Shown here piece by piece: positions 6,212-57,394 of a stretch of DNA of 64,000 nucleotides (the first letter of the stretch is position 1; each line of letters begins with the position of its first letter). Both the position numbers and the translations under genes were made by a program. The stretch comes from Halichondria panicea (lineage: Eukaryota; Porifera; Demospongiae; Suberitida; Halichondriidae): assembly GCF_963675165.1 (NCBI RefSeq), contig NC_087383.1, forward strand, positions 3,502,979-3,566,978, read 5' to 3'. The notes under the pieces were generated by a model. That model was not told the DNA's origin and did no database searches. It saw only the letters and a program-made list of their open reading frames with translations.

Positions 6212-6259
6212 CACAGCAGTCTTACATGTGAGTGCTAGATTTATAATAATGCTAGAGGT

Positions 6260-17500: not shown

Positions 17501-20500
17501 ATTGAATTGGCGGTTTCTAATTTGGCGTCTCAGGCGTGGCGACTACAGCGCACTATGCATGCATCCAGCTCAAAAGAGGGAGAAACTCCCACTCACGGCT
17601 GGCCCGGGGTATTTCACATACAAAGCAATACTCTTGGTGGGTGTGGTTTCCTGGCATTGAACTGCGAATATATTACAACCACGAACATTTCTTCTGAGGG
17701 CTTTCGAGCCAAATAACTGCTATACGGGCTGACACTACAGTGTATAAAATAATGTCACAGCTAGGAGTTTACCGTCATCTTCCCCAGAGCTCTCTGGCTT
17801 GCCAACAAAGACAGGTTCAGACATACTGCAGCCATCCTCCGACCATGTTAGGCATTTCTTGGTCTTCAGGTCTGTCTTAATGAGATCCTATACAATATGT
17901 AATTATACAGTCACAGCTACATTACAACTAGGACATGAATAATAAAGTAAGTAAAATGCTAGCTATAAGCAGCAAGTATAACAGGAGCTAGAGGCATGTT
18001 GAAACTTTTAGAACTAAGAACGGAGTTTTAGTAATGTATGAGACATAATTCATTGTATAGGATCACATGAAAGAATTAAGCCTGGAGTCTTAGAAATAAT
18101 GTATGGCTCCTGTGGTATGTTCTGGGGCTAGGATCAGGGAAAGTAAAAGAGGCCAACAATCATAATTCTATAGCTTTCTACTTTTATTAGTGACCCTGTT
18201 CCATTGTTCCTGGGTACGGGATCACTTCAGCTGTAAATACGTCGGACCTACCTCAAAGGCCAGGTGTATATATAGCTATCTAGCCAACGCTTTTTAGCTT
18301 TAACATTAAAATCTACCACTATTAATGTACCTTGTTGTGTGAAGGCTATCCTATCCGTGCTGTAAATGCAGCGCTGTGGAATCCAGGTGAGTAAACTCAT
18401 GCGTCACAAACAAACAAACGGACTACTGTGGCCACCCATGCGTGCCTCAGGTAACAAACCAGACAACTATACCATACCCGCTGACCGTGGCACGGCCTCG
18501 GGTATAACTAAGCTATGAGAAACCACTATGAAGGATACGGCCCTTCCTATATAGTACCGTAGTCGGCAGTGTTACGCACTTGGGAACTATAGTGTTGTTA
18601 AGAATAAGGATAAAGAAAATAAGAAGCAAAATAATAGTAAAGAATTTTACTTCATGTCATATCAATGCCAAGCCTATTTCCATGGTCCCCATAATTTATG
18701 GCTAAATGAGGACAACACAGAGATGCATTAATTGTGACTGGTCATCTTTATCATTACAAGTGAGTCAATCATTGAAGTATACGAATGATCCCTAAAGCGA
18801 TTAATGCTTCAAATATGAAAAACTGGAACACATAATAATATTATAACACAAGAATTAATAGATTTGCCGAATTGTAGATTCATTAGTACGTGTATAATTA
18901 TTAATTTGAACCCCCTTTTTCTACAACTATATACAGACTGATATGACTGTTGAACTATTGAACAATTGGACGACACTCTTAATAAGAAAATATCTAAAAT
19001 TTGATCATCACAGAATTGTGATTTAAAAATAGACGCATTATGTCATGTGCATGTATAGATAGATGTATACTAACCGTGAAGAGCTGATTCAATCCGTACA
19101 CGAACTGATAAGGTCTCCCATTGCACTTCCGGTAATTGATTTGTGGCAATTCAAACGCTGCATGCATATTATATAATGTTGACTGAGGTACAGATGCTAC
19201 ATATGCAGTGCTGATTTATACCTTTCTCTGAAATAGTACCATGATGACACATGATGCTGCCGTCTTCTTGAAATTGGGCAGTAGCTTCAGTGTAATCTAA
19301 AGTTACGAGGTTAGTCTTAGTAGGATCCTGCACAAAGGAAAGAAACAGCTCCTAAACGTGTTAGACATTGGCCATTAATTACTTCCCTGCTAGCCTATAA
19401 TTATATATGTATTATAATGAACCAGTATAAAAATTCGATACACATGCAGTGCCCAATCTTGTTAATTAACATACTCTGCAGAGGGTCCTAAAAACACTCC
19501 AATACCAAACCTTATATATATATAGTAACTGTAAACTAGCCAGCTATACCTGCAGTTCGTGAGCGATGGGAAGAACGTAGCGTCTGGGCTCCACTTTGAT
19601 TTCTTCCAGAAGAAAGTTTGAGCTCAGGTCATTCAAACTTTGTACATAGAAAGAGTCGTACACTCGCCAGTCTCTGTATGCACATCCATCCAGCACAATG
19701 TGCCCTATATACAAACAGCACGTCAGAATAATAACAACTTGAGGAGGGTGCTATCAAGCTTGCAAAACACCACTATTTGTATAATTATGTTGGTGCATGC
19801 ACGGTATACCTTATTACGTAATATTTACTACAATTTAAACCATAAATTGCTGCTGTCAAGTTGTACTTTGTACTCTAGCATTTAGCCTTGTTCATGTGAG
19901 CCCCACCCATTTTTTACTCACTTTAGAAAAAAAGCTGCACTGTTTGACAGCAGCCATTACTTTTAGACTTTGAACTGTAGACATCCTTTTCAGCAACAAT
20001 CGTGGTTGATCATTTCTCACTCTTTGAGTTTCCTCGTGATTTTTCCTGTATCACAGTTGGCACAGCAACTATGAAGTCAATTAGCATGAATGCTTGCTAT
20101 AACTTAGCTACAGTTTGTAGAATTGTTCAATTACATAATATATATAATATTATAGCGAAAGAGAACCAGTTTCTATTTTAGATCTAGCCTGTCTAGCATC
20201 TTAGCTAACCAATTTGTCTATACCGAGAAAGGGCTCAAACAATATACATTCTGAAAACGCCACAGGTGCTGATGCTTTGGTGCATGGTTGTGTCAAAGCT
20301 ACATAAAGCTACTAGCTAGCTAAAGACAATTATCATGATGTACATTTTTACAATTGCATACAGGAAAAATCACGGGGAAACTCGAAGAGTGAGAAATGAT
20401 CAACAATGATTGTTGCTGAAAAGGATGTCTATACAGTTCAAAGTCTAAAAGTAATGGCTGCTGCAAACAGTGTAGCTTTTTTTCTCACTCTTGCAGCTAC

Positions 20501-23184
20501 CAACAGCTAGCGTTCTACTAACTATACTAACTAAAGTAGAGTATCAACACTCTATGAACAAATTTTACTATATATACTCTTCTGAAAAAGCTGCAATTCC
20601 AAGTAAGCAAAACTAGGAATAACTCGACAATAAAACATTACAAATCCAAGATTGAAATCCAAGAAAACATACATGACTATAGAAGCTCTTTCTTGAACTT
20701 CATTGATCCTCGAGCCACCGTATAGCTGTCTGTACAGACACAGACACACATTATAAACCGTATATATATACTCGCTGCGCATGCGTACCTGAGGCTAATA
20801 GTATGCAGCTGCATGCTTAAGTGAGCACAAGTTATAATACTGTATACCATTGTCCTCAAAAGCATTAATGTGATGCAGGATAACAGCAGGAGGAGCAAAG
20901 AACTTTCCTGGGAGCACATTACCACTGCTCTTCTCCACAACGTAAAATCTGATCTGAGGGACGAAACAATCAAAATAAGTCACAATTCTATTAAGCACTA
21001 CAATTTACACATACATAATATACAATCATACATAACCCATGTACATGCATGTAGCAGGTTCCATACATTTCGCGAATTTCAACAGCTAAAATCCCAAAAC
21101 TACGTGAGTGCTAAAAATAATCAATAGCAAATTATACCTCAAACTATCAAAAATTACTCGCTATAGATCATTCATTTAAGTCTTAGAGAGCAAACAAATC
21201 ATCTCACCATTTCAGTATCATCCCAAGCTAGCAGTTCGTCTCCTAGGGTTTGCTTGTTGAGAAGTTTGTTAGTCAAAACCTTCTGAATGTCCAGATGGAC
21301 AGGTTGCTCAAGAAACACGAAGTAATTCTCTGTAGCACCAAAACTGTAGAAAAGAACGTAGTGTAACTAAAGTACGTACCTAACTAAATTTAGGGGGAAA
21401 CCAGCAAAACTTTACGACACTATAATTATAGTAGCCACATGCACCTGTGATTGTATCCTGGCTTTAGCTTGTTCTTGGGCTCTACTGTACACAAAATACT
21501 GGCTTTATCCATCAGATGCTCACCTACAAAACACCTACAGTAAGTTAAATACATGTATACACTGAAAAAAGAGAAAAACCTTTTCCAGTAGGAGGTATCT
21601 TGATAATGGTGTACCCAGAAGGAGAGCTCCCAAGGTTGTACACAGTTCCATCATCATCAATGTGTGGATGAGCAGAGGCCGAATTAACAGCTACATGCTT
21701 AGAGAGCTGAATCTGAAAATGAAATTATCGTATTACAGTAGAACCTCGATTATCCGGCCGGCCCTCGATTATCCGGAACCTCGATTATCCGGCTTGGCAG
21801 TTTTCGTTTTAATCAGATTACATAATTCAGAAAATGGGCGTGTCCCTCAAATGCGCATGCGCGTTGCAGCTGTTACCATGGAGACATGCCTGCTTTTCTT
21901 TTGCGCATGCACAGACAACATGTGGCACTGCTGTTCATCAATAAAGTGGGTGGATCAAGGCGTGGTTTATCTATTCGATTATCCGGCAAATTCACTTATC
22001 CGGCCTGCTTCTGGAACGAAGGTGTCCGGATAATCGAGGTTCTACTGTACTGCAATGTTTTATACATGCAAACTTGAATAGATTTCCAAAACAAGAACGT
22101 AAGAACCTACACTTATATACATTATGTACTTTTATGACATCACAATCCTTAATCGCAAAGTTAAACGGCAAAATTTTTGCTTATTTATTTATTGCTCGCA
22201 AAATAATCATTGATACGGGGGGCAGGCGTAATAATTACACACTCATACCTTTTGCTGAGAGTCAAGTGTTTCTGGGGAGAAGACGTGAATAAAATCACTT
22301 TCTGTGGCTGCAACGAACTTGTCTCCAGCAGGGTACACGTTAATGAAGCAGTTATCATTCATACCACTTGTATGGTCAGTCAAAGACGTAAAATAAGACT
22401 GAACCCTGAGAGGAAAGTATACATGTAAGTTTTGTTTCATTTGTGATGTATTAATACAACATTTCGTTCTATAGCGTCGTCTGACAATTTTACTTGCTAC
22501 AATTTCAGTGTGAACCTTTGGAACATGGTTTTGCAAGGGTCTGGCACTGCTGCGGTCCCAATCGAACTCATCACCATTCTTTTGGCAGCCATGTTATTGG
22601 TGTAGTAATCACTCCGTAAGAACTTACTGGAGTACATTACTTTTCCTGAGTGTACAAGATGGAGAAGTTAATTGACAAGGTAATTAGATCAGTCATGCAG
22701 TTCAAAGAGAGTAGCATTATACCTGACTTTATTGTGAAGCTGTGCAGTAAAGCCATTCCATCAAACCAATGGTTCAGTTTAGTGTCTCCAATTTCTAATA
22801 GACCTGGCCCATTTCTGATCAGCTTGCCACTCAGCCAGTCAGGCAAAGATCCTACATGCAAATGAAGCAATTGGTAATGAATGCACTCGTTAATAAGAAA
22901 AATAAAGACACAGACAACACAGGAACGTAGACAAAATGTCCTATAATTATAGAACCAGTCTCGGTTAGGACCCCCTCTTTTATAACGCCTATATCTACTA
23001 CATGTACCATATACAATGTTTCTAGTTATTTTTTACTGGTGCTATATTGATTAAAACAATTACGGTATATCTGATCGATGCATGATAATACATTATTTTA
23101 TCCGACAGTAGATCTAGACTCACCTTTGATCTTCCCTTCTAAAGGTACACTTTGCTCTGAAACTGACTTGTACAGCTCACTCAT
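14533..23184 (-). CDS. BCO2: Carotenoid cleavage oxygenase, copy B
   Basis: Second tandem oxygenase. Exons 5' to 3': 23124-23211 (possible start ATG at 23184), 22723-22851, 22516-22645, 22249-22405, 21580-21712, 21445-21523, 21208-21343, 20848-20953, 19550-19704, 19222-19327, 19075-19157, 17773-17887, 14533-14696. From that ATG (MSELYKSVSEQSVPLEG) the product is 517 residues, with the same histidine motifs as copy A (AHPHID, YNHSFG, LHHINAFED, DVHGIF) and PDPCK. Exon lengths match A except the ninth (155 versus 149 bp). Internal exons differ clearly from A and C, but the last exon is nearly identical to both. The exon carrying the ATG keeps a splice acceptor (TTTTCTCAG) at 23212 and stays open upstream of the ATG (AWISTTSE), so a first exon may exist; I could not find one with an ATG. 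The last intron is about 3.1 kb and full of foldback elements. Confidence 0.88.
14886..15935. mobile_element. Foldback element of about 1.05 kb
   Basis: AGACACAGTTTAGGAAATTTC near 14887 is inverted at 15910-15935, and GGATTTAGTGCTGTCACGTG near 15149 is inverted near 15884-15908. A further inner inverted repeat, AGAACACACCTAGCCAAG near 14990 with CTTGGCTAGGTGTGTTCT near 15130, gives nested stems. It lies in the last intron of oxygenase B. ORFs in the middle are not recognised. Confidence 0.65.
16577..17178. mobile_element. Mutator-like non-autonomous element with 9-bp target duplication
   Basis: Terminal inverted repeats TAGCCTCGATTCCAGGCC and GGCCTGGAATCGAGGCTA, flanked exactly by GGCATACCG at 16568-16576 and 17179-17187. 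A 9-bp duplication is typical of the Mutator superfamily. Inner inverted repeats (AGAGGCTCTCATCTAC near 16840 and its complement near 16978) make most of the element a foldback. No transposase ORF. Confidence 0.7.
17284..17459. mobile_element. MITE related to the TACCGTATA group
   Basis: Inverted ends around ACCATAAAGCGGGTTATTTTCG and GGGAAAATTACCCACCATAC, in the last intron of oxygenase B. A separate repeat fragment at about 17590-17720 resembles 2990-3110. Confidence 0.5.
18170..18500. repeat. Partial copy of the 52.8-55.8 kb repeat family
   Basis: Contains GTGACCCTGTTCCATTGTTCC, the donor-like ATCCAGGTGAGTAA and the CAAACAAACAAACG tail seen in the repeat cluster at 52791-55760. It lies in the intron between the exons at 17773 and 19075 of oxygenase B; the rest of that intron (17888-19074) shows nothing further. 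Confidence 0.65.
19925..20796. mobile_element. Foldback built on the 10321-type element
   Basis: About 130 bp at 19925-20055 is the inverted complement of 20360-20490 (for example AAAAAATCACG-type stretches and GTTGATCATTTCTCACTC against GAGTGAGAAATGATCAAC), forming a long hairpin around the start of the element copy at 20252-20796. It lies in the intron before the 20848-20953 exon of oxygenase B. Confidence 0.65.
21736..22047. mobile_element. pogo/Tigger-like MITE with TA duplication
   Basis: Begins CAGTAGAACCTCGATTATCC, ends with the inverted complement GGATAATCGAGGTTCTACTG, and is flanked by TA on both sides. TIRs of this form are typical of pogo-group Tc1/mariner elements. It sits in an intron of oxygenase B. 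A decayed relative is at 45388-45610 in the lamin gene. Confidence 0.8.
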
Positions 23185-23394
23185 CTCACTGGTTGTGGAT
23201 ATCCATGCTCTCTGAGAAAACAGACGTAGTCCTAGCTGATAGCACCTGGTAGATAACATACTGTCCAGCTATAGACTCGACTCGCTGGTATTCCCTCAGT
23301 GCAAGGTACTAGGTGTACGTACGTGGACGTGTAGCACTATCATAGACTGGCCCCTCGTGTACCGCGAGGGACTGGCAAAACTGTCTATCAGTCC

Positions 23395-25317: not shown

Positions 25318-25823
25318 AATAATTGACCACATAACTTCCGGGGTCGAACTCAAATGGCGCAAAGAGACTTTAGTTGTCAACAGATTCAGCGACAGAAACC
25401 GTGCAGAAGCATTGTCTCATGATCAGTCACCCTCTATAACATAGATTCGTGATTAGGCCGCCTAACTTTTAGAGGGCGGTCTAGTCGGATTTCTTGTTTG
25501 TACGCTTTTTAGTGTTCCCCCTGGCCATGCAATCCTAACAACTTTTCACTAGCAAATATTTTGTGGTGCTTGTTATATTGTAGTCTCATATACTATATCA
25601 CAGTGACCCTAAATTTTGTACTCCTTTGTTTATCATGATCTACACAGCCCGTCTGGCCACGCCCTAGCTCCTTCAACGGCTCAACCTTTGTAAGGGTAAT
25701 TATATCCCCTAGATCCAGAGCCCTAGAGCAGAGGACCTATAGAGGCACAAAATTAATTTCAAACACCATGTAGACACGTACCCTACAATTATAAAAAGTA
25801 CAGCTTTGTTCAATGCTAGAGGT
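25318..25823. repeat. 3' flank of gene C duplicated at 13118-14532
   Basis: From AATTGACCACATAACTTCCG up to the stop codon of oxygenase C this DNA is nearly identical by eye to the DNA beside oxygenase B, except for the 13165-14057 insertion there. The matching 3' flank is absent beside gene A. It contains no gene. Confidence 0.8.
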
Positions 25824-28800
25824 TCACTCCAGGGCTGAAGTAGGTACGAATATGCCGTGGACATCTTTGTGCCACTGAATGCCTGGAAACTCTACTCTAG
25901 CCATCTCTGTCATTGTCCTGGCATCCAGCACCAGCAGGAACGGTGGCTGACTCTCATCCACACGGAGAACAGCAGACAGGATTACTCCTATATATACATA
26001 ATTAACACAGCATGCATTAGGTCCAATTATTATTGACAAATCCCCCGGACATGCACCCGAGTGCTTAATTCATGTTTGCTTTGGTCCTGGAAGAGGAGGT
26101 TAATTAAAAGAAGTTCAAGGATAGCTAGAAGAATAGATTTATAATTATGATGATAGTTATTTAGTCAAAAAAGGGGTGGAACTGAGAAGAGGTCATGCAG
26201 AGTTCATAATGGCTGCTGCTTCTGGCAGACAACTTTACAAGCTTACCGTCATCTTCCCCAGAGCTCTCTGGCTTGCCAACAAAGACAGGTTCAGACACAC
26301 TGCAGCCATCCTCCGACCATGTTAGGCACTTCTTGGTCTTTACGTCCGTCTTGATGAGATCCTACAATAAGTACGACGAGCACATGCATGCAATCACAGA
26401 CATTGATATTTATATAATTATATAGAATATACATGTATAGGTATCTACGCTAACGTGGCTAAAAGCCATATAAATTACAGAAGGCTATAGTTAAGTTGTT
26501 AGTTTTCGTCGCATTGTTGGGAATACAATTACACAATCATGCACATGCACATGCACATATATATATATATAATTATATATATACAGTCAGCTTTACCGTA
26601 TTCCTCGAGACATAAAAATTGACCTCTCGGTGACCAATCAAATTACACAATTGTGACAAGCAAATTCTATAGCAATCACATGCATTAGCTAACAAACACC
26701 TCAATATAGGACTACATGTAGCAAGACGTATACGATATGCATGTACAGTGGAGTCTCCGAATAAAGGACACTTTGCGGGAGCAGAGCTTTTGTCCTCTTT
26801 TTGGAGGTTGTCCCCCGGTGGGAGGTTACTATTTATAGCCAAATCAAGGAATTATAGATAGTACCGTATATCTTCTAATTTATAGGACAGCAAAAAAAGG
26901 AAATTGTCCGGGTATAATTGGAACAAATTTTTTTATAGAGCTAGCTAAGTTTAATAGAACAGTGTGCGACTGAATAGTTGCACTATAGCTATCTAAAACT
27001 AGCTACTCAAAGCTATCTAACTGCAGCACTCTAAGTCTTACTTGCCGTCTGTGAATGTAACTCAACTATTGTCCGGATATTTAGTAATATTAAAGCACTG
27101 GAGTGTCCGTTGTATTAGAACAACGAAAATTTCCCAAAAGAGTGTCCGGGGTAATTAGAAGTGTCGGATAAATTAGAAGATATACGGTATATGTATTGTC
27201 TGATGGACCCTAATTTTAGGTTCAAGAAGCTAAGAAACTTGCTGAAATCAAAGATATAAAGCATTCTTGCAGCCGGTATGCCAGTAATGGCAGTATATAT
27301 TAAAACTACAAATGACCTCTACCATATTGGACATAAAAAATGTTAGTGTGGTTTCCTGTTTGTCCGTTATATATATAAGAGGCAGTTCAAGTGGTTTGCA
27401 CAAGAGTTAGTCAGTTGGGAGCACGAGGCTTGTCCTCTGTCTGGAATCAAGAATTAAGGTCTGCTTGTGGGAGGTCGTTTCTGTGTATATACTCTATGCC
27501 ATAGCTAGTGACCTTTATATAAAGGTTGCATGTCCTCTAGTAGGAGGGGTCGGTTATGGGAGGTTCCACGTATACTATAGTTATTATTATTGGAGCCAAG
27601 AAGTTATAATTATGTAGCATATAATTATATACAATATCAATACCCAGTAATTTTGTAATTTTGTAATGATTAACCGATCCACATCGTATACACTAACCTC
27701 AAATGTTTGGTTCAGTCCATACACAAATTGGTAAGGCCTTCCATTGAATTTCTCATAGTGGATACGTGGCAGCTCAAATGCTGTATATACACAAATGAAC
27801 ATGCAACAACAGTGTAAGCAACAATTATATTTACATTTCTCCGAGATGGATTCGGGCTGACACAAGATACTGCCATCTTCTTGAAGCTGGGCAGTGGCTT
27901 CAGTGTAATCCAGAGTTACCAAGTTCACTTTAGTGGCATCCTATAAATATAAAAGGTGCAGCTTGACTGATTACACGCCATGCATAGTTCTTATATACAT
28001 GTAGCTAGCAGCTTATGAAAATTAGTATTACAGTCACTACATTTATGTTATACTTATTGCCCACTACATCAGAATTTATGGCAGTAAACCTCCGAGGACA
28101 AGGGCGAAGCCCTGAGGCCAAGGACGGTTTACATAAATTCGATAAAAACGAGCAAAAACGAGCAAAAAGCCTGTCCGTACAGCTTGTAGAATATACCCCA
28201 CTTAGGGTCAGCTCTGTATCATAGCAACTGGGTGGGCATAAACTCCTTTGCCTTGAGCCAGGGTGCATTGATTTTATACTAGATCTACACAGCTAAAAAG
28301 AAGCTTAACGCTTGTTGACAAGGGCAGGACAGATGAGTGGGGCTCACTAAACACCCAGGAAGGCTGGAGAAAGGGTGGGGCTCACCGCTTGGACATAGAC
28401 AAGTTAGTGCGTAGAGCTAGAAGCTTAGCACTGGCTACAAGCTGTACGGACAAGGTTTTTGCTCGTTTTCAATAGTTTTTGAGACTGTTAGCTAGATGTA
28501 TCCAAGGTGAGGTAGCTTAGGTGTAGCACGCAGTTTTCATTCCAGTGGGTATATAACACTTATTGTCCACTACATTCGAATTTATAGCAACGTAAACCGT
28601 TCTTGGCCTAGGGGCTTCACCCTCGTCCTCGGAGGTTTACTTTTATGAATTCTGATGTAGTGGACAATATAAGTACAACGTATCACTTCCAGTCTATAAT
28701 ACGGATGGGATGGATTACCAAACACCTAGTTCAAAAGTAAAGCAATATAGATGTCTTACATGTAGAGTTTGATCAATAGGGAGCACATAGCGTCTTGGAT

Positions 28801-31800
28801 TTGCAAAAATGTCACCTTCCACTATCCCACTGTTCATGGCTTCGAGAGTTAGGGTACTGTATACCCTACCGTTGTCATAACCACAAACATCCAGAACTAT
28901 GTGACCTATAATATGAATGACAGGGAGAGCATTGATCAGGCATTCCCCTCCCTATATATAGCCGATGGCAATTTACTCACTTTTTACAACGTACATGTGT
29001 ATATATCTCTATCATGCATGCAGTCAATTATGTACATCGTGACACGAGCAAGACTTACATATTTACCTTTGTCCTCATAAGCATTGATGTGGTGTAAGAC
29101 CATACCAGTAGGAGCAAAAAACTTCCGCGGAAGAATGTTACCACTGCTCTTCTCCACAATAAAGAATCTGATCTGTGGGTATGAACAATAATTATTATGA
29201 ATCAAAGTTCACTCATGCATACCAACTCATTTTCCTGCCATTCAAACATTTTGTCAGGTATAGTTGGCTTGTTAAGGAGAGTATCCTTCATAACTTTCGG
29301 TAAATTGAAGCAAAAAGGCTGCTCTAGTAGTACAAAGTAATTCTCAGTTGCACCAAAGCTGTGAGAACAAAGATATACATGTATACAGAAACAAATTAAT
29401 GAGTGTGTGTTTGTTTGATAACCTGTGACTATAGCCTGGCTTAAGCTTGTTCTTTGGTGGTACATCGCACAACACACTAGCCTTGTCCATCACATGTGAA
29501 TCTACAAAAAAGGTCAAGCTAAGTAGAGCAAAAAAATGTTTAACATTAGATTACTATTATCTATATAGTATAGTTCTTCTTATTTGATTTAAGGCGACCC
29601 TCTAAATACGCAACATTTAGACATTTTGCTTTTGTTTTGTGTACATGTCTTTGCAAAACGTAATTATTTTTTTAGTGTCGCCTTAAATCAAGTAAGTATA
29701 CATTCCATTATTTTCTCCATCATTTAACTACATGTATTAAAAGTGATCCTTAAATTGCTACATTTTCAACAAGGAGACATAGATATGCACAAGATACTGA
29801 TTGCTAAAAAATTTAACATTAGCCTCCTTCACAAGGCCTCAGAAAAGAGGCCTAGCTGCTACTGACTGCTTGCGCATGCGCAAAATTATTGGATATTTTC
29901 CAGTAAAGTTTCCTGCCAGAAAAATATCCTGCCGGAATAAATATATGGACAAAGAATACAAATTCTAAAGTCATATACACAGAGCTATAATATTATAGCT
30001 AGCTAGCTAGAGACAGAGCTGTGTAGGTTTATTGCAGCAGCAATTTTCTTTCTGAAAGAGAGTCTACATGTAGCCAAAGTTATTACTAGATGGGCGTGGC
30101 TTGTCCATATAGGCTATAGTGTCACCTTTCACTCCGTTCAGACGATTGTCATCCACACTGTTGCAGGCTATGAGTCTGCTAAGAGTAGCTATAAAATGCT
30201 ATGGCTATAGAAACCTTCACAATCAACCTTTAATCCCACTTCCGTTCGTTGTGACGTTATTGTTTTACTGAGCATATACGATTTTATCCGGAGTCCCCAG
30301 TTTCTGGGGATTATGTGGCGCATGCGTATAAACAGTCAATACCAGGCCCATCTTCAGTGCGGCCTGGAATCGAGGTTAATTTAACATAAGCTCTACAATT
30401 ATAGTGTTCTGCATGGCGACCATTGTTGATTATCCAGTCAAAAAGAAAGTTTGAACCAAAGTGAAGGTTTTAATTTACTTTAAAAATTATGGGTCGGAGT
30501 CTCCTCCATTTGACAAAAAATAAATACAGCCTCTTCTGCTTTCTCTTTGCGTAATGTTGCCACAATCACAGCCTTGACCATGCGCGTGCGTAACATGTGT
30601 CCAATTAAATTGCTGCAGCATATGCACTTTTATAAGTTCAGTGGTTGTCTAACTAGCCTTAACAAACCTAACCGCTACTCCAGTTACTTACCAGGTCCAG
30701 AAACTTGGTCCATGCTCAAATGCTTCTTCCTCAGGATTGTCAGGCTCTTTCTTTTTAGCTTGACATAGCTTACTACCTAGCTATGATCCCAGTCATTGTA
30801 TTCTTACTCAACAAGGCCATGCATCACTGTATAGCTGCCCTAGAACCTCCCTGAGGTTGTACTTACGAAGATCTCATAGCAGGTCACTTTTCTGTCGATG
30901 ATTCTGATCGACTCTAAGCATGTGCTGGTACCTGCAGCGTGCGCATTTATATTTTTTATATTCAAACACATGCAGTGTACACAGTGATGTATCGGTAGCC
31001 ATGCCAGCTAAAGCGGGGAGAGGATTAATCTTTATAAGGCAATGCGACGATTAGGAAAGCACACAAGATACGATCCGCGAACCCATGTACACGCTCATTC
31101 TGTAATCTGCTCCATACATACATCACCTTTTCCAGTAGGAGATATCTTGATGATGGTGTACCCATTTGCAGAGCTGCCGAGGTTGTACAATGTTCCATCA
31201 TCATCAATGTGTGGATGAGCAGTGGCCGAATTAACAGCTACATGCTTAGAGAGCTGAATCTGGGGAATAAAAGTCAGGACGGACACTATATAGGCGTAGT
31301 ACATATCAACAATGAATAAACTTGACACAATAGTACATGCACTTAAACTTATAATTTTATGTTGAAACCTTTTGTTGTGCATCGAGTGTTTCTGGGGAGA
31401 AGACGTGAACAAAATCAGATTCTGTGGAAGCAATGTACTTGTCTCCAGCCGGCCAAACATTGACGAGGCAGTTATCAGTTATTTTCGTTGAGGGGTCAGT
31501 TAGCGATGTGAAATAAGACTGCACCCTATATAATTATTAATTTTAGAGAATTTTCACTTAGCATTAGTATTTAAAGCACAAGTTAATTATGATGGGTGGG
31601 GGGTGGGGCTCAACTACATGCACAGTAATGTTTAATATTGAGAGTAGAATTTGGTTTACTACACTGTAGCTAGCAGACTAATTCTCACCGCTGAGTGGAC
31701 CTGCAGTATTATTTTATTATTATTATATGTATATACCTTTCAAACAGAGTCATACATGGGTCTGGGACAGCTCCTGTTCCAAACTCCGATACCACAAGTC

Positions 31801-32716
31801 TGTTAGTAGCCATGTTCTTAGTGTAGGCGTCACTGCGCAGGAACTTGCTTGCATAAAACACTTTTCCTGTACGACCAGGTAAACACTTCAATAGCAGTCA
31901 CTTGCAATTAGGGTCAAGCATACTTATGTAAATGCAAGTCAGGAGACAGAAAATAATAATTATAATGAAGTGCAACTTTATATCCACTTGCCTGACTTTA
32001 TTGTGAAGCTGTGCAATAGAGCCATTCCATCGAACCAATGGTTCAGTTTAGTGTCTCCAATCTCATATAGCCCTGGTCCATTTCTGATCAGCTTGCCACT
32101 CAGCCAGTCAGGAAGGGATCCTATATCCAAATGAAACATCAGGAAATTATCAAAAACAAGGCAAATTTAAATTGATATACCAGACTCTATAGCTAGCAAA
32201 TTAATAAGATCTATATATATATATATAGCCACAATTCTGTCATGCCCAACAGCGAGAAAGTAGACTATACCACGTGTAAGTGCATGGATCAAGGTTAACA
32301 CGTACTGTCTAAAAGTTCACAATCTAAGATGTAAAAAAATGGCAGTTTACTTAGATGGTAAAATCTTATATTGTACGGAAACCAAAACAGCACCCTGACG
32401 ATAGACTATACAATCTGGCCCATCTATTGGTTGATGAACTATATAGCGCTTGGCTCTGAACGACTTTACTTCTCTACCTTGGATTTTTCCCTCTACAGGT
32501 ACAGTTTGCTCTGGAACTGACTTGAACAATTCTCCCCTCACACTGGTTGTGGATAAGGATAAGCTTATCCATGGTCTCTGGGGAGGGTATAGGGATAGAA
32601 TTATTCAGTTGAGCAAGTTGTTCTAAACTCATGCAACTTACTAGGATGACCTGAAGAGATTTTCTGAGAGAATTGTAAGACCTCTTCTTGATGAGCAACA
32701 CACGTACACTTGCCAT
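25824..32716 (-). CDS. BCO2: Carotenoid cleavage oxygenase (BCO2-like), copy C
   Basis: Third tandem oxygenase, closest to copy A. Exons 5' to 3': 32642-32716, 32478-32577, 31992-32120, 31737-31866, 31369-31525, 31127-31259, 29423-29501, 29223-29358, 29067-29172, 28760-28905, 27835-27940, 27698-27780, 26247-26361, 25824-25987. The product is 552 residues with all four histidine motifs ([28 protein letters not shown]). Exon 1 ([20 protein letters not shown]) is strongly basic and looks like a mitochondrial presequence. As in A, the intron after exon 3 uses a GC donor. Intron sequence is shared with A in places, such as the stretch upstream of the last exon. The gene is divergent from the first CatSper2 gene, whose ATG is 344 bp away. 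Confidence 0.93.
26862..27189. mobile_element. MITE with TACCGTATATCTTCTAATTTA termini
   Basis: Inverted ends TACCGTATATCTTCTAATTTA and TAAATTAGAAGATATACGGTA enclose about 285 bp in the intron before exon 13 of oxygenase C. The rest of this long intron (26362-27697) holds no clear feature. Confidence 0.8.
28049..28678. mobile_element. Inverted-repeat element in a gene C intron
   Basis: ACTTATTGCCCACTACATCA near 28053 is inverted at 28655-28676 (TGATGTAGTGGACAATATAAG), and the arms continue inward through AAACCTCCGAGGACAAGGGC-type sequence. It sits between exons 10 and 11 of oxygenase C. Its small ORFs are not recognised. Confidence 0.7.
29580..29697. mobile_element. Short MITE with TTGATTTAAGGCGAC termini
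   Basis: TTGATTTAAGGCGACCCT near 29585 is inverted as GTCGCCTTAAATCAA near 29679, in the large exon 7-6 intron of oxygenase C. That intron (29502-31126) also holds sequence shared with the same intron of gene A near 9890-10260. Confidence 0.6.
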
Positions 32717-33060
32717 GGACAATGCAATGATGGATCGATCATAGATACATTTTATATACTGTAATTTAGGATGGATCTCATGTGTTATATAAGAGGTCAT
32801 GCATGCGTCTTGTTTTCGAGTGTAGACTGTAGACGTACTAGTCTTGTTTTCGAGTGTGCATGTCATCACCTGCGTCTTGTTTTCGAGTGCATGTCACCAT
32901 AGAAATTATTATCTGCTGCATGCTACAGCTGCCTTGCTAGAATCTTTGAAATTTGGCTCATGACTGAGTAAGTCTGCAGTCTGCAGTGTGCATGTGTCAC
33001 ATGTAAGTATAGACATTATAAAATCTACTTTCCTCCAGCTTCGATTCTGTTTTATAAGCA
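32717..33060. promoter_or_regulatory. Divergent spacer between oxygenase C and CatSper2 copy 1
   Basis: Only 344 bp separate the two ATGs, so the promoters must lie here or overlap. It contains three direct copies of CTTGTTTTCGAG at 32809, 32843 and 32876. The same motif, with the following CACCATAGAAATTATTATCTG, recurs upstream of CatSper2 copy 2 (37305-37345). No protein binding to this motif is known to me. Confidence 0.6.
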
Positions 33061-35870
33061 ATGGAGGTGAAATCGCATACACTCTCGCATCGAACTGAAG
33101 TGTTTAGGTCCAAGCTCATAGAAGATTTCCAAATCCTTGAGAGCCTCAGCGAGCAGGGAAGCAAGAAAGTCCCTATATACACCTCTGCTGACATAACTAG
33201 TGAGACACGTATATAAAACCGTGATTGACTGTCATTTGACGAGTAGATCCATATAATTCATTGTATTAAAGCATGACACCAAGATGGATATTAATCCTAT
33301 ACATAAAAGATATAGTGCTGGTGTCAGATCTCGCTGCATGACCCAGCATGCCTCTCATAAAAGCTTGGCCATGCATTCATCAAACTTTTACTAGCTCACT
33401 CACACTCACATTACCGTTGTTGATATAATCATCCCTAAATGCAGAGACTGGTGTCTTGGACAAAGTACTGCTTGAGAACCCCGAGCAGATGATCAAATTG
33501 AAGATATACCAGCGTGATAAGATCAAAGAGATAGACAGCAATGTTGACCGCAGACTCATCCGGGTCAAGAATCAAAATAATATACCTTTGGGCGTCTGGG
33601 CGTCTTGGGTTGTGGAGAGTATCCCATAGTCTTAGTATAGTTATAAAAGCTAGAGGGAGTATAATTATATATATATCGTATTACTAGAATGTTTTGCGAG
33701 CATCAAACATATGCGAACTTTTTTTGCGAGGGTTGATCAATTCGCAAAAATAAAACCACAACACCTAAATTATTACTAGAATAAATACACATGATCCTTG
33801 CCAGAACACAATAGTTATATATCGCAAAGGGTTTGCTGATTTGGCTCATTCGCAAAGATTTTTCACCAGCTATGTATTCTAGTAATACGGTAGCTTTCAT
33901 ATTTTGCAATTATTTTCCTCAACCGTTTACAAGGCAGAGTGTTTCAAAACATGCTGTTGATTCTCATCATCGTAAACGGCATCTCCATAGGCGTTGAAGG
34001 AGGTATATAAACTATATCTTCTGTGTACATTAATATTACCCAATGCTGTTTCTTTTAGAGCTGCCAGTGACGAATGATTTTGGGATTGGCATTCTAAAGA
34101 CGCTCTTGGACTTCATTGATTCATTCTCAGTGATTGTTTTCATCACAGAAATTGTCCTCAAGTGGATTGATAACTTCAGAAGATTCTGGAAGAACCCATG
34201 GAACATCTTTGATTTTGTTGTGACAGTTGTTGTGAGTTCTCTAAAATATCTGTCCTGGTCATTCTGAAATAATATTGTTCTTTCCTTGCAGAGTGCAGTT
34301 CCTCTAATTATAATGTTGCTAACTAATGCCAGAACCTCTCAATTTACCGTCATTACAAAGCAGTTGGCCGTCTTCAGAATTATTAGGGCTCTGAAAATGG
34401 TCAGTGAGGTTAGCAATACTCTGTATGTCATGTGTGTTTCTACAGATTGCTCAGTTTGGTAGCCTCAGGATAATTGTACTGACAGTGTTGCAAGCGTTTA
34501 AGGTACAAACCACGATTGTGTCTGCCTCATAATTTTCTTTGACTCTTATATAATTATAGTCATTGCTGTTTATTGGGATTCTTCTCTTCGTGGTAACCTA
34601 CATCTTTGCTAGCGCTGGAGTCATCTTATTCGAAGCCTACACGATGTCACAGAGAGCAGACCTACAATATTCTCGCAGCTTCAGGTAATTTTGCCGATAA
34701 AAATCATAGAATAATTAATACGTGTAATGACCATTATTTTGATCTACAATTAACAGTTCCTTGGTGGATGCCACCATAACGCTGTTTCAAATTTTTACTC
34801 TGGACCAGTGGTATGTGATCTACAATGATCTCATCAAGGTCATCCACCCAGTATTTGCCTGCACTTACATCCTTCTGTGGGTCTGGATAGGAGCATTCTT
34901 GTTTAGAAACCTCTTTGTTGGAATAATGGGTTAGTCAGTTAATGTGTATCTATAGCACGCCGGGTCACAATGTTGTTGAAACTTGCTGGCAGAGATCTAT
35001 TTTTATAGCAATCTGAATCATCAAATTCAAAATTGTCAGGTGCTGCACTGGTAAAACGTATGAAACATGGCCCTCGTGATTCTAACCAGGCTATATAATT
35101 ATAATTATAAGGCTGTTCTTGATCTATATAATTATACATTGCACGCATACAGTGAATAATTTCCAGACCATAACTGAAGAGTTAGCTCGTAAGCAAGAGA
35201 ATATGGACCAGAATGATGAGCTTGCGAAGTTGAGAGAAGATCTCCATAATGAATTGACTATGCATGAGGCCAAAATGACCAACGCCAGGTACAGAATGCA
35301 ACCAATTGTGGCAATTAATATTATGTATTTTGCAGAAAGTCAATATTTGTTCCGGCATCTTCTGGTCATTCAGCTTCTGGTCATTCAGCTGGCTGCAGTA
35401 CAATTGGAAGGTCAGTTACCATACTCGTTGTGCCAGTTATAACTACATTGATTGCAGTGGGGGAGGAGCTGAGTTGAGACAGCAGATCAGCCAAATGATG
35501 CAAGCGGAAAAAAGGATTTCTTCTGGTATGCAACCATTTCATTTCTAGGTACTTCGTAACTCTTTCTATCAGGATGGGATAAAATTGTGCAATCACATCT
35601 TATGGGTCTGTCTAGCAGCCCAGGTGAAACCTTGTGGCCCCGAGACACATTGTTCAAGTAAGGGTGTTTGTGTGTACGACTTTGATTGTGAATTGCACTC
35701 TTTAAAGGTACTACCAAGTATTGGAGCTTCTAGTGGAGAATCTGGACGAGTATGAAAAGCTTCAAAAGCTTGCAAGTAAGCTCGGCTGGGATTCATGATT
35801 TTTGATTGCTTATCTCTAATTTGTTTGCTCAGATGATTGCCTGATTAATCTTCATGACAGTGATCCCTGA
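33061..35870 (+). CDS. CATSPER2: CatSper2 sperm cation channel subunit, copy 1
   Basis: Pore-forming subunit of the CatSper complex, the Ca2+ channel of the sperm flagellum in animals. Fourteen exons: 33061-33199, 33445-33618, 33934-34002, 34059-34231, 34292-34399, 34446-34502, 34560-34684, 34757-34929, 35153-35288, 35336-35410, 35458-35525, 35573-35657, 35708-35775, 35833-35870. The product is 495 residues (human CatSper2 is about 530). Six membrane segments: S1 about 107-126, S2 142-160, S3 165-190, S4 200-225 (FRIIRALKM), S5 241-262, S6 313-340. The pore has the CatSper T-x-D-x-W signature (FTLDQW, about 295-300). VNNFQ after S6 and the C-terminal LWPRDTLFKYYQVLE match CatSper2 specifically. 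A coiled coil follows S6. Two GHSA repeats (GHSASGHSAG) lie in exon 10. No disabling change is seen. Confidence 0.92.
33677..33890. mobile_element. MITE, second copy of the 11675 type
   Basis: Ends GTATTACTAGAATGTTTTGC and GTATTCTAGTAATACGG, inside the second intron of CatSper2 copy 1. Copy 2 of the gene lacks it, so insertion followed the duplication or was lost from copy 2. Confidence 0.75.
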
Positions 35871-37550
35871 ATAAAACTGGTGCTCCAACTAACTTAACTA
35901 CTTCAGTATTAGATTAGTTGTATAATTATTCTATTATGCCGTATAACATATTTAATTCTTCATGCACTGTAATACAACATTCCTCCCCCCACCCCCCCCC
36001 CCCAATCACGCCTAATTTTCAATGAAATGCAGCGTATTTTCAGGCAACACGTGCATGCTACATATATTATATGCATGCATGCATGGGTGCCAAATTTTTT
36101 TCCCAAAACATAATAAAATAAAAAAAGTTCGAGTCCTATATAAAATGAAAGCACCGCAGGTGCTGATGCCTCGGTGGAGGTGCCAAAGCTACATATAACA
36201 TAAAACTACTAATAGCTAGCTTTTATACAATGATTGATTATAATTATCATGATAAATTTTGCTGCATGCAATCAACCGAATAGTGGGTAATGATCGACCA
36301 TGATTGTTGTTAAAAACGATTGATGCCAAAAGTTCAAGTCTAAAATTAATGGCTGCAAGTCAGCAGAGCCTTGCAGCTCTCTGCTCACTCTTGCAGCTAC
36401 CAATAGCTAGCGTTCTAGTGCAGAGCTAACTACTAAGTAGAGTAGTAACACTCGGTGAACAAGTTTTGCTACGGACTCTTCTGAAAAGGCTGCAATAGCA
36501 TTCCAAGTAAGCAAAACTGGGCATAACTCGAGAACGAAGCATTATTTTGCAAATCCACGAATTAAAATCCAAGTAAACATGACTAGAAGCCTATAGAAAC
36601 TCTTACTTGCACTTGATTCATCCTTGAGCAGCTGTAGCGGTCTACACACACACAGTACAGAGACACACAGACACACAGACACACTACCGTATACCTCGCT
36701 TGCGCATGCGCACCGAGGCATAATTAGTGTTAGGGAAAGCTGTATAATATGAAGCACTGCATGCAGGTGCTGATGCCTCGATCGGTGGGTGCATGTGTCA
36801 AAGCTACATAGTACATAACATGGCTATGCGTGCTATGCACATACACAATGACATGATAATTATCATGATGAACATTTTGCATCAGGCTAATCACAGGGAA
36901 ACTCAAAGAGTGGGAAGTGATTGTTGCTAAGGATGCCAAAAGTACAAAGTCTAAAATTAACTCATAAACAAGGTGACAAAGGTAAATAGTGGATATCTTG
37001 TAGTCTCGCTTGCTGGGGCATATATATCTTGTCAGTATAATTTCGAGTTCACCCCGATGGGATGGATCGACGGTGTAATGGCTAGATTTAAAGATGACCT
37101 CTAGGCTCTAGCTACTTTAAATACACATTTTGAGTTGCTTTTATGCCGAAATTTGGATTCACAGCGTGTATGCTGTGGAATTGGAAACAGAGCTAGAGCT
37201 AGCTAGAGAGAGAGCCATTGAAATGTTAGTGAAAAACTAGCCTCGATTCCAGGCCGGCCTGGAATCGAGGCTAAGCCTAACCGGAAGTTGGTCAATACCT
37301 GCGTCTTGTTTTCGAGTGTGCATATCACCATAGAAATTATTATCTGGTTCAAAATCATGATTTTTACAGCTGTAGACTGAAGAACCTTGGGCCGGCTGAT
37401 GACAAGTAAACTGTTCAGTAATTGAGTCTGCCCTCTGCAGTGTGGCACTTGTAAGTATATAAAGCAATTTATACATTCTAATAACCGTTGAAATCTATAG
37501 CTAGCTACATTTTCCTCCTGCAGCAGTCTTGATTCTGCTAGTGCTAAGCA
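35871..37550. other. Intergenic region between the CatSper2 copies
   Basis: No gene is seen. It holds a copy of the 10321-type element (about 36144-36720), a truncated copy (about 36750-36960), a perfect 36-bp palindrome at 37238-37273 made of two Mutator-type TIRs joined head to head, and the upstream block of CatSper2 copy 2 with CTTGTTTTCGAG at 37305. Confidence 0.7.
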
Positions 37551-40018
37551 ATGGATGTGAAATCGCACACACTCTCGCATCGAGCTGAAGTGTTTAGGTC
37601 CAAGCTCATAGAAAACTTCCAAATTATTGAGAGCCTCAGTGAGCAGGGAATAAAGAAAGTCCCTGTATACACCTCTGCTGACATAACTAGTGAGGCGCAT
37701 TTAAAAATTAAAGACAGTGTAAAATAACACCGAGAGGGGCATAATAGTAATTCTAGTACATATAGTGCTCTTTGCATACCACATAATGTCATTGGTGAGT
37801 TTTGCATACGTATAATGTGCATCAAATTCATGCCGGCATGCCTCTAATAAAAAGTTTGGCCAAAAAACTTTTACCAGCTCAATCACACACACCCACTGCT
37901 ACATTGTTTATATAATCACCCTTAAATGCAGATACTTGTATCTTGGACAAAGTACTTCTTGAGAACCCCGAGCAGACGATAAAATTTAAGACGTACCAGC
38001 GTGATAAGATCGAAGAGGTCAACAACGTTGTTGACCGCAGACTCATCCGTGTCAAGAATCAAAATAAACTGCCTCTGGGCGTCTGGGCCTTGTGGGTCGT
38101 GGAGAGTATCCCATAGTCACAGTATCATAAAGGGAGTAGCTTTCGTATTTTGCAATTGTTTTCCTCAACCATTTACACAGACAGAAAGTTTCAGAACATG
38201 CTGTTAATTCTCATCATTCTAAACGGCATCTCTATAGGCATTGAAGGAGGTATATAAACTAAATCTCCTGTGTATATTAAATACCCGATGCTGTTTCTCT
38301 TAGAGCTGCCAGTGACGAATGATATTGGGATTGCACTTTTAAGGATGCTCTTGAACTTCATTGATTCATTCTCAGTGATTGTGTTCACCGCTGAAATTGT
38401 TTTGAAGTGGATGGATAACTTTAGAGGATTCTGGAAGAACCCATGGAATATTTTTGATTTTGTTGTGACAGTTGTTGTGAGTTTCTCTACTGATGTCCTG
38501 GCTATTCTGAAATAATTATTATTGTTCTTTCCTTGCAGAGTGCAGTTCCTCTAATTATAATGTTGCTCACTAATGACAGAACCTCTCAATTTGCCATTGT
38601 TACAGAGCAGCTCGCCGTCTTCAGGATTATTAGGGCTCTGAAAATGGTCAGTTAGGTTTAGCTTTCATTTTAATTCTGTGTGTCATGTGTGTTTCTACAG
38701 ATTGCTCAGTTTGGTAGCCTCAGGATCATTGTACTGACAGTGTTGAAAGCGTTTAAGGTATATAAACACCGCAATTTTGTCATAATTATTCTTTGACTCT
38801 ATGATTATATATAGTCATTGGTGTTTATTGGAATTCTTCTCTTCGTGGTAACCTACATCTTTGCTAGCGCTGGAGTAATCTTTTTTGAAGCCTACACGAT
38901 GTCACAGAGAACAGACCTACGATATCCTCGCAGCTTCAGGTAATAATTATAGTTATAGATCTACATGTATAATTTACATTGAATCCCCTGTTAACAGTTC
39001 CTTGGTGGATGCCACCATAACGCTGTTTCAACTCTTCACTCTGGACCAGTGGTATAGGATCTATAATGATCTTATCAAGGTCATCCACCCAGCTTTTGCC
39101 TGCACCTACATCCTTCTGTGGGTCTGGATAGGAGCATTCTTGTTTAGAAACCTCTTTGTTGGAATAATGGGTGAGCCAGTTAATGTGTATAGCAGACACC
39201 AGTATAGCTATTTATACAGAAGACTTTTGGCCCTCGTGATTATAACCACTATATAACTGTTGTCACTTCTGTACATGCATGCATGCAGTGAATAATTTCC
39301 AGAACATAACTGAAGAGTTAACTCGTAAGCAAGAGAATATGGATCACAACGAGGAGCTTGCAAGAATGAAAGAAGAACTCAATACTGAATTGACTATGCA
39401 TGATTCAAAAATGACCAACGCCAGGTACAGAATGCGACTCGTGGTGCCAATATTATGTGTTTTGCAATACACAGAAGGTCTATATTTGTTCCAAAAGCAT
39501 CTTCTAGTCATTTAGCTGGCAGCTCCAGTACAGTTGAAAGGTCAGTTACCAGTGCATGGGTGTGAAAATTTGAATCATACTTATTTTGATTGCAGTGGGG
39601 GAGGAGCTGAGTTAAGAGAGCAGATCAGCCAAATGATGCATGCGGAAAAAAGGATTTCTGCTGGTATGCAACCATTTTTCAATTTTTAGGTGCTTTAGTA
39701 ACTTTTTTCAATCAGGATGGGATAAAACTGTGCGCTCACATCTAATGGCTCTCTCTTGCAACCCAGTTGAAACATTGTGGCCTCGAGAGACATTGTTCAG
39801 GTAAGGATGCTTGTTTGTGCAAGTTTGATTGTGAAATGCACTCTTTAAAGGTATTACCAGGTAATGGAGCTTCTAGTCGAGAATCTGGACGAGTATGATA
39901 AACTTCAAAAGCTTGCAAGTAAGCTGTGCTGGGATTCCTGATTTTTAATTACTTATTGTCTGATAATTTGCTCTGCTCAGATGACTGCCTGGTTAATCTT
40001 CATGACAGTAAGCCCTGA
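37551..40018 (+). CDS. CATSPER2: CatSper2 sperm cation channel subunit, copy 2
   Basis: Tandem duplicate of the gene at 33061, also intact. Exons: 37551-37689, 37932-38105, 38181-38249, 38304-38476, 38539-38646, 38701-38757, 38815-38939, 38998-39170, 39289-39424, 39475-39540, 39596-39663, 39716-39800, 39851-39918, 39981-40018. The product is 492 residues; only exon 10 differs in length (66 versus 75 bp), where the GHSA repeat is missing. The pore signature FTLDQW, the VNNFQN segment and the TLWPRETLFRYYQVMELL end are kept. Every intron position and phase matches copy 1. Both copies would be predicted to enter the same complex position, so they may be alternatives or differ in expression. Confidence 0.92.
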
Positions 40019-52565: not shown

Positions 52566-52790
52566 TCATACTTAATAATTATTATCAAATATATATAGCA
52601 AAGCAAAATCGTAAGATCATCATTCATAATTGTATTCATATAATTATACATACATAAGTTATGTATCTCGGTACATGTATACACCATGCGTACGCGTATA
52701 CGAGAACTAATAAACAAAACAATTATAAGTTTAATTTACGCCACCAATATTAATATAAATATTTATATGTGCACAAGAGAAAGTAACACT

Positions 52791-55798: not shown

Positions 55799-56963
55799 CT
55801 AGTTCAGTACCTCCCCCGGCATAGGCTCTCCTCTTACTCCAGCAAGAATATTTTTGATTGTCATCTCCATCATACGTTTCCTTGTGACAAGTGTAGCACT
55901 GCCTAGAGAATGAAAAAAGGAAATTGAATGAAACTTATACATGCAGGCATTGTATATGCCAGCTTTAATTATACTTATTATGGCATGGTACGTAAGAGTG
56001 AATGAGAAATGTTATATAGAGTTGAACAACGCGTACTAAAAACCAAAAACGTACTTTAAAATTCCCATCCACTAAAATTTCAGTCAACTTACCCCAGTGT
56101 GGTGTGATGGTTACATTCGACAGACTGAGAAGGGGGTGGTCTCGTGGCAATGGCTCGGGGGTAGTTACATCAAGTCCAGCGGCTGCAATTTGATTGGACG
56201 ATAATGCAGCTACAAGGGCATCTTGATCAACAACAACACCTCTTGAAACATTGATGAAAACAGCACTCCTTTTCATAGCAGCAAATTCTGTCTTGCCAAA
56301 CAATTTAACATTTTCTTTACTCCCAGGAACCACCACTACCACAAAATCGGACTTCTGCAAAAGCTCGTGTAACGAGGGAATATAAGAAACAGACAATTCC
56401 TTCTCTACAGCACCATCACATTGCCTTCTGTTGTGGTACAGCACGGTCATGGAGAATGCTCTTCCTCGCTTAGCTACCTCCATTCCGATTCGCCCCAATC
56501 CAACGATACCCATCACCTGACCACTCACTTGGTACCCAAACGAGTTCAAGTCAAAGGATTTTGTTGCCGGATCTCTACAAATATGATCTCCCTCACACAC
56601 CCGTCTTGCTGTCGCCAACAACAGTGCAAAAGCCATGTCCGCCGTAGTATCATTTAGAGTCCCTGGGGTGTTACCTATTCGGATGCCTCTAGCCTTGCAT
56701 GCTCCAACGTCAACAGCGTCATAACCAACACCATTTTTTCCAACCACCTTCACAGCAGGGAACTTGTCCAAGAGCTCCCCATTCACAGGACTTGGGTTTT
56801 TGCACACCAACAGTGCGACAATCTTCTTTCTGAACTTGTCTACTTGGTCAGGCCAAACTATAGTGAAATTTTCATCTATCATTTGCTGCAGTTCAGGATG
56901 GAGCAGCTCCTCTTGGTACACAATAGGCTTGTCATGCTTGTTCTCCTCACACTGGGAAGCCAT
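55799..56963 (-). CDS. D-2-hydroxyacid dehydrogenase (glyoxylate/hydroxypyruvate reductase-like)
   Basis: NAD(P)-dependent oxidoreductase reducing 2-keto acids such as glyoxylate or hydroxypyruvate. Two exons: 56093-56963 and 55799-55902; 324 residues, the usual length. The reading frame continues across the intron to give PHWGSATLVTRKRM. Motifs: NGVGYDAVDV (77-86), the Rossmann glycine pattern GLGRIG (155-160), and the catalytic Arg241 (NVSRG), Glu270 (TTPEP) and His289 (TPHWGS). HNRR after the second beta strand (177-180), in place of an acidic residue, suggests NADPH. The start MASQCEENKH has no targeting signal, so it is probably cytosolic. The large first exon with one late intron is unlike its intron-rich neighbours. 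Exact substrate cannot be read from sequence. Confidence 0.93.
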
Positions 56964-57394
56964 GTTTCAGCCTGGAAATGAACGATGGTCAAGAATCTCA
57001 AGTGAGCCACACCCTTTTTTCTGCAAAAAGAAGGGGCGTGTCTTGTCGTTTTGGTTCTTTGCTGGGCTACTTGTTTTTCTCCAAGATCAAGTATTCTGTA
57101 CTACAGGTATTAAGGTCGATTGAAGAGCTTTTATAATTATATATTGATATTGCATATTGATTTTTCTACAAACTAGACAATGGCTGAAGCTGCAGTTCAC
57201 CCTGAGACAAATTCGCATCACTGAGAATGAGTTAGACATGGTTCCTACGCTGTTGTCATGGAGCTAGAGTATTGAGGCCTGAAATGTGCCGGTAAAAACT
57301 GAATCCGACTCTGAATCCGAGGCGGTACATGTGTTTGACAAAGGAATTCGAAGGAAATGGAAACGAACAATCCCACCCCATGAAGATATTCACC

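Follow-up and report, generated by a model that had tools for sequence, protein, structure and literature searches.

CatSper is the calcium channel that powers sperm motility, and in mammals it is a heterotetramer that contains one each of the subunits CatSper1, CatSper2, CatSper3 and CatSper4. According to Cai & Clapham 2008 (PMC2572835), all four subunits are required and extra duplicates are expected to degenerate, and the family passed from early metazoans to vertebrates without further duplication, except for a CatSper2 pseudogene in primates; the same paper reports that CatSper was missing from the sponge data of 2008 and treats this absence as provisional. Here we describe two CatSper2 genes, copies A and B, which lie head to tail on the plus strand of a 64,000-nucleotide stretch of the genome of the demosponge Halichondria panicea (hereafter the window, C7:3502979-3566978; the host assembly comprises 131 Mb in 39 contigs). 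The primate duplication involves the same subunit and is reported as primate-specific (PMC2572835), but one member of that pair is a pseudogene, whereas both sponge copies are intact and are, as a pair, under purifying selection. The first-pass annotation of the window regarded CatSper2 as usually single-copy, in agreement with Cai & Clapham 2008, and the sponge pair contradicts the view expressed there that CatSper duplicates degenerate (PMC2572835). Rather than a novel type of system, it represents a further member of a known family and an exception to a published generalisation. The parts of PMC6660944 and PMC5095125 available to us do not address CatSper2 copy number, and among the matches listed in a search of the open-licence literature no title or beginning of an abstract dealt with a retained CatSper2 duplication. 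For an accessory subunit, PMC12005167 reports that the epsilon family is larger in Acropora millepora than in Astrangia poculata.

We propose, with a probability of roughly two in three, that the pair arose by a lineage-specific tandem duplication, and that both copies have been retained as working CatSper2 subunits that share or divide one slot of the channel. The underlying observation, two intact tandem CatSper2 genes, holds. The limits given for the pair in the first-pass annotation, 33061 and 40018, are exact and correspond to the ATG of A and to the end of the stop codon of B. Likewise, its description of an intact head-to-tail pair with identical exon phases and without disabling changes is borne out by splicing: each copy comprises 14 exons, whose entry phases agree between A and B (0,1,1,1,0,0,0,2,1,2,2,1,2,1), with GT-AG borders at all 13 introns and a single, terminal stop, and a check of the spliced frames of A and B revealed no internal stop, frameshift or loss of a splice site.

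The sequence comparisons support the assignment of both A and B to CatSper2. Pfam Ion_trans matches each protein in one stretch that covers nearly the whole model (positions 2-239 of 241 in A, 3-239 in B), in keeping with the complete membrane segments read earlier from the letters alone. In a search of solved structures, carried out with copy A only, the best match is 7eeb_B, a CatSper2 chain from what we take to be a mouse CatSper structure entry (as is, presumably, 9ubw chain B), with 247 bits over two stretches; CatSper2 chains score 247 and 183 bits, and no CatSper1, CatSper3 or CatSper4 chain appears in the best 60 of 151 matches. The main stretch scores 219 bits against 7eeb_B, compared to at most 57 bits for single Cav domains among the alignments printed, some of them partial. 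The second stretch aligns residues 433-492 of A with 526-587 of 7eeb_B (30.4 bits) and the same C-terminal segment is present in B by alignment, so that the CatSper2-type C-termini ascribed to the two copies are indeed found. Cav3 (T-type) and other Cav/Nav channels share the Ion_trans fold with A and B, and their summed scores are high because each of four domains contributes; however, they carry four domains per chain and lack the ends typical of CatSper2.

The resemblance to the mammalian CatSper2 chains 7eeb_B and 9ubw_B extends to the domain order, the N-terminal motif (FRSKLI in A and B, IRSKLI in mammals), segments S1-S6, the C-terminal segment and the filter pattern T-L-D-x-W; the C-terminal pattern WPRDxLFxYxxxLExLxxNLxExxKLQ common to A and 7eeb_B has WPRE and ME in B. 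Identity to the mouse chain amounts to 152 of 409 residues for A (37%) and 149 of 409 for B, the filter is TLDQW in the sponge copies versus TLDHW in mammalian CatSper2, and mammals possess one gene and this host two. The pore signature FTLDQW, as annotated, occupies residues 295-300 of both copies, and its last five residues (296-300) fit T-x-D-x-W, the pore motif of CatSper. Neither copy groups with another CatSper subunit, the outcome that the first-pass annotation had named as a refutation: in a six-sequence tree A is sister to B (0.995), and together with mouse CatSper2 they are split from rough fragments of the host CatSper1, CatSper3 and CatSper4 (0.998).

The two proteins agree at 408 of 491 aligned residues, leaving 83 amino-acid differences, and the coding sequences differ at 151 of 1473 aligned bases (about 10%; 84 transitions and 67 transversions), which matches the earlier statement that the copies are separated by many substitutions and by a GHSA repeat in exon 10, present in A and absent from B. 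Exon 10 of B (39475-39540) is 9 bp shorter. The four largest DNA blocks that match between the genes show 81-90% identity, and when neutral change over the same distance was simulated, only 1 of 2000 runs kept a stop-free frame for the pair, compared to 17 of 2000 for a single branch (d 0.10), so that the observation is not due to chance. Identity across introns 3-13 is 84% (528 of 627 aligned positions) and thus consistent with the synonymous change; this figure excludes intron 1 (75% of 214 aligned positions) and intron 2 (92% of 74) because of long unmatched stretches. Four methods place dN between A and B at 0.077-0.092 and dS at 0.166-0.211.

A divergence of this order bears on the idea that two haplotypes of one gene were joined end to end in the assembly, which the first-pass annotation had named as a possible artefact and which we regard as extremely improbable. 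Usual allelic differences are several-fold below the divergence of A and B, with its 17-21% synonymous change and introns 3-13 at the identity given above. Moreover, the sequence between and around the copies is unmatched, the window contains no Ns, both copies sit on a single contig without a gap, and the flanking genes within the window are not repeated along with CatSper2, apart from a separate array of RPE65-type genes. A genome search with copy A yielded 29 matches, of which the close ones all fall in the A/B pair on C7 and the remainder (on C10, C3 and C2) are weak and correspond to other channels. Thus, no further close CatSper2 exon was found in the 39 contigs by this search, which scores only the best candidates and could let very divergent extra copies escape. 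No close relative of copy A was found in viral_contigs or of copy B in genome_contigs, neither of which is a collection meant for animals.

The dN/dS comparison between the copies that the first-pass annotation had proposed gives an omega of 0.40 by NG86 (bootstrap 0.29-0.57), a value for the pair as a whole, for which all 1000 bootstraps stayed below 1. We read the pair as being under purifying selection, with at least one copy somewhat relaxed or accelerated, and the intact frames combined with this omega indicate that both copies have probably been kept, as was suspected. The candidate analogy with a CatSper2 pseudogene of the primate type was rejected, there being no disabling change in A or B and no bootstrap of the pair at or above 1. 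Gene conversion was rejected as unsupported: dS in sliding windows of 60 codons ranges from 0.12 to 0.36, and synonymous changes are no more uneven along the gene than in permutations.

The constraint is not uniform along the protein. S4 (residues ~210-236) and the TLDQW filter are identical between A and B, and dN amounts to 0.060 in the membrane part, 0.104 at the N end and 0.114 at the C end. Residue 302, two past the filter tryptophan, is valine in A and arginine in B, and S4 is flanked by two charge changes, K208E before it and Q237K after it. It is tempting to speculate that such replacements near the pore and S4 might affect gating or conductance.

Genome-wide, Ion_trans gave 43 matches; on closer study three of them, on contigs other than that of the pair, were identified as the other pore subunits, and the rest were looked over. 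In structure searches the locus at C15:343 kb retrieved CatSper1 as the only CatSper chain in the best 60 of 131 matches, that at C9:4.707 Mb scored 142 bits with CatSper3, its best CatSper chain in the best 60 matches, versus 60 bits with CatSper2, and that at C3:515 kb scored 134 bits with CatSper4, no other CatSper chain being present in the best 60 of 143. At all three loci multi-domain Cav/Nav chains outscore the CatSper chains in total, because several domains sum. These host proteins resemble A and B in being six-segment subunits of the same channel type, and their pore motifs read TLDDW (CatSper1), TAEGW (CatSper3, where the exons were joined roughly) and TQDGW (CatSper4). When each of the three fragments was used to search the genome, the only strong match was the locus it came from, the others being weaker cross-matches. 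Thus CatSper1, CatSper3 and CatSper4 were each found once and CatSper2 twice in searches that score only the best candidates and could miss very divergent extra copies, so that only the CatSper2 slot appears to be doubled, and A and B group with mouse CatSper2 rather than with the other host subunits.

The following scenario can be put forward. The entire CatSper2 gene, together with a short stretch of 5' flank, would have been duplicated in tandem in the lineage of this animal, at an age corresponding to about 17-21% synonymous change, and both copies would have been kept as functional CatSper2 subunits. Since each of the other pore subunits was found at a single locus and a mammalian channel contains every subunit once, A and B are most simply regarded as two candidates for one position, for which they most likely compete or which they split by cell type or stage. 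By analogy with mammals, we infer that both proteins assemble with CatSper1, CatSper3 and CatSper4, giving two versions of the channel that would have the same selectivity filter and S4 and would differ in their cytoplasmic ends and some loop residues. A retained pair for one subunit, next to a single detected locus for each of the other pore subunits, amounts to a natural subunit-exchange experiment. The full CatSper1-4 set in a sponge is of interest in itself, given the absence reported provisionally in 2008 (PMC2572835).

Several results weigh against this proposal. Three other estimators raise omega to 0.45-0.55. For human and mouse CatSper2 PMC2572835 gives an omega of 0.324, and we simulated, for equal branches of 0.10, a model in which both copies evolve at this value and one in which one copy is neutral. 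With both copies at 0.324, the observed omega was reached in 13, 1 and 0 of 150 simulations (kappa 1, 2 and 4, respectively); because it exceeds most of them, one or both copies seem to be somewhat relaxed or accelerated. With one branch neutral and stops removed, an NG86 omega as low as observed occurred in 0, 9 and 34 of 150; this favours the proposal at low kappa, but at high kappa the model of one neutral copy is compatible with the data (34/150 at kappa 4). The 83 amino-acid differences lie above the 95% ranges of the first model (within 48-80) and below those of the second (99-144), the latter again in favour of the proposal. In the tree the branch of B is longer than that of A (0.136 vs 0.058). 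Furthermore, of the accessory subunits CATSPERB matched only two exons, weakly and below the cut-off (25.5 and 15.4 bits), at a possible locus whose frames revealed nothing clear, the best E value for CATSPERD was 0.4, and CATSPERG had no match in the host genome; short exons weaken these searches and control genomes lacked matches in all three, so that absence from the host cannot be deduced from them. As to the asymmetry between A and B, at the sites where they differ the mouse residue matches A in 13 cases, B in 10 and neither in 38; the count of 13 versus 10 is nearly even, at odds with the longer branch of B, and the mouse is too distant an outgroup to decide.

A rival explanation is plain redundancy, in which A and B are co-expressed and interchangeable, or one of them is decaying but still unbroken, and no function is divided. 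We consider this a real, though unlikely, explanation. Besides the omega above most simulations of two fully constrained copies and the longer branch of B, it draws on the apparent ease with which this neighbourhood duplicates genes (three tandem RPE65-type genes adjoin the pair) and on the 3' ends: A has a polyadenylation signal, AATAAA, at its stop codon, whereas neither AATAAA nor ATTAAA occurs in the 460 bp that follow the stop of B. However, neither copy has acquired a stop, frameshift or splice-site loss, a neutral branch seldom stays open for so long in the simulation, and retention to a dS of about 0.2 is long for a redundant copy, judging by the half-lives of duplicates.

The 5' flanks provide a further difference between the copies that touches the proposed division of one slot. 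The flank common to A and B is patchy and spans about 250-300 bp; a 16-base motif, GTCTTGTTTTCGAGTG, occurs three times before A, at spacings of 34 and 33 bp, and once before B, where it sits in the best conserved part of the shared flank. These are its only four exact matches in the genome, and its letters read backwards do not occur in the whole genome. The motif may be a promoter or regulatory element, or simply a short tandem repeat whose origin coincided with that of copy A. The only pointers to alternative assemblies or divided use are the single CatSper1, CatSper3 and CatSper4 loci and this ratio of three motifs to one, and they suggest only weakly that the use of A and B is divided rather than merely redundant, whereas the retention of two genes is well supported. 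A more specific version, with two CatSper channels that differ only in CatSper2 and are driven by their own promoters, for example in sperm versus feeding or larval flagella, is correspondingly doubtful; if true, it would show that a four-subunit CatSper channel regarded as fixed can be diversified by swapping a single slot.

The unequal motif number could also be taken as a sign that one copy has left the CatSper1-2-3-4 channel altogether, for instance for the flagella of feeding cells or larvae or for other partners, as could the N and C ends, which change faster than the membrane part; otherwise this idea is speculative. It is quite improbable, as the C-terminal segment, S4 and the filter are kept in both copies and B is about as near to mouse CatSper2 as A is. 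Retention of both copies in the CatSper2 position thus remains our preferred reading. The coordinates of the pair and of the associated elements are collected in Table 1.

Table 1. CatSper2 copies A and B and associated features of the window (position 1 is the first base of the window).
Feature	Position	Strand	Remarks
CatSper2 copy A	33061..35870	+	14 exons, 495 aa; spliced, phased; Ion_trans 128.1 bits; 7eeb_B 247.4 bits
Copy A, exons 1-7	33061-33199, 33445-33618, 33934-34002, 34059-34231, 34292-34399, 34446-34502, 34560-34684	+	
Copy A, exons 8-14	34757-34929, 35153-35288, 35336-35410, 35458-35525, 35573-35657, 35708-35775, 35833-35870	+	
CatSper2 copy B	37551..40018	+	14 exons, 492 aa; spliced, phased; Ion_trans 126.7 bits; groups with A
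Copy B, exons 1-7	37551-37689, 37932-38105, 38181-38249, 38304-38476, 38539-38646, 38701-38757, 38815-38939	+	
Copy B, exons 8-14	38998-39170, 39289-39424, 39475-39540, 39596-39663, 39716-39800, 39851-39918, 39981-40018	+	
16-base motif GTCTTGTTTTCGAGTG, three copies	32807..32889	+	starts 32807, 32841, 32874; 187-254 bp before the ATG of A
16-base motif GTCTTGTTTTCGAGTG, one copy	37303..37318	+	248 bp before the ATG of B
Exon 10 of copy A with GHSA repeat (GHSASGHSA)	35336..35410	+	15-bp unit, 2.1 copies at 35359-35390
Main part of a ~240-bp insert, copy A intron 2	33678..33892	.	absent from B (introns 315 vs 75 bp)
Spacer between the copies	35871..37550	.	1680 bp; dispersed repeat and shared 5' flank of B

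The insert in intron 2 of A matches positions 11675-11890 of the window at 84% and has mirrored ends, ATTACTAGAAT ... ATTCTAGTAAT; because its ends mirror each other, it looks like a small non-autonomous DNA transposon. The dispersed repeat of the spacer (36139-36726, similar to 10317-10861) is found three times in the window, the other positions being 10317-10861 and 20383-20743.

Upstream of the pair, three RPE65/carotenoid-oxygenase-type genes are arranged in tandem on the minus strand (6248-12644, ~17738-23268 and 25812-32703), with what appears to be a detached RPE65-type 3' end near 14062-14700. PF03055 matched all six RPE65-type pieces tested and exceeded the cut-off in two, both from the third gene, the approximate 5' end of which faces copy A across about 450 bp. 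Matched blocks of the first and third genes are 72-87% identical, a range that overlaps the divergence of the CatSper2 pair, which suggests that the region duplicates genes readily. The gene directly after B, from 40480 onward, is of the intermediate-filament/lamin type; its first exon matches PF00038 (61.9 bits), and GCGCATGCGC lies upstream of it near 40123. Farther downstream, direct repeats of about 80-430 bp, 73-92% identical, lie within 3 kb at 52788-55644 and possibly form a small tandem array, and a long open frame on the minus strand (55965-56966) encodes a D-2-hydroxyacid dehydrogenase (PF02826, 186 bits).

Elsewhere in the genome there are candidates, and only candidates, for two further parts of sperm signalling, a Na/H exchanger and a tandem K channel. 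The locus at C10:899 kb (L019) may encode the voltage-sensor part of a sperm-type Na/H exchanger, with 50 bits to sperm-specific exchanger chains and up to 102 bits to Cav/Nav chains. The locus at C3:2.155 Mb (L027) is a candidate tandem K channel of the cyclic-nucleotide type with two GYGD filters, whose best solved relatives are the plant GORK/SKOR channels and cyclic-nucleotide-gated types. Ten Wnt exon matches are distributed over three contigs and correspond, by eye, to about four genes; Wnt genes are specific to animals, and this number is in keeping with an animal that has few of them, just as the compact introns and the gene content accord with a sponge. Finally, in silicatein a serine replaces the catalytic cysteine of the cathepsin type; among the 77 cathepsin-type matches in this genome, inspection of four loci from the top five showed the catalytic cysteine in every one.

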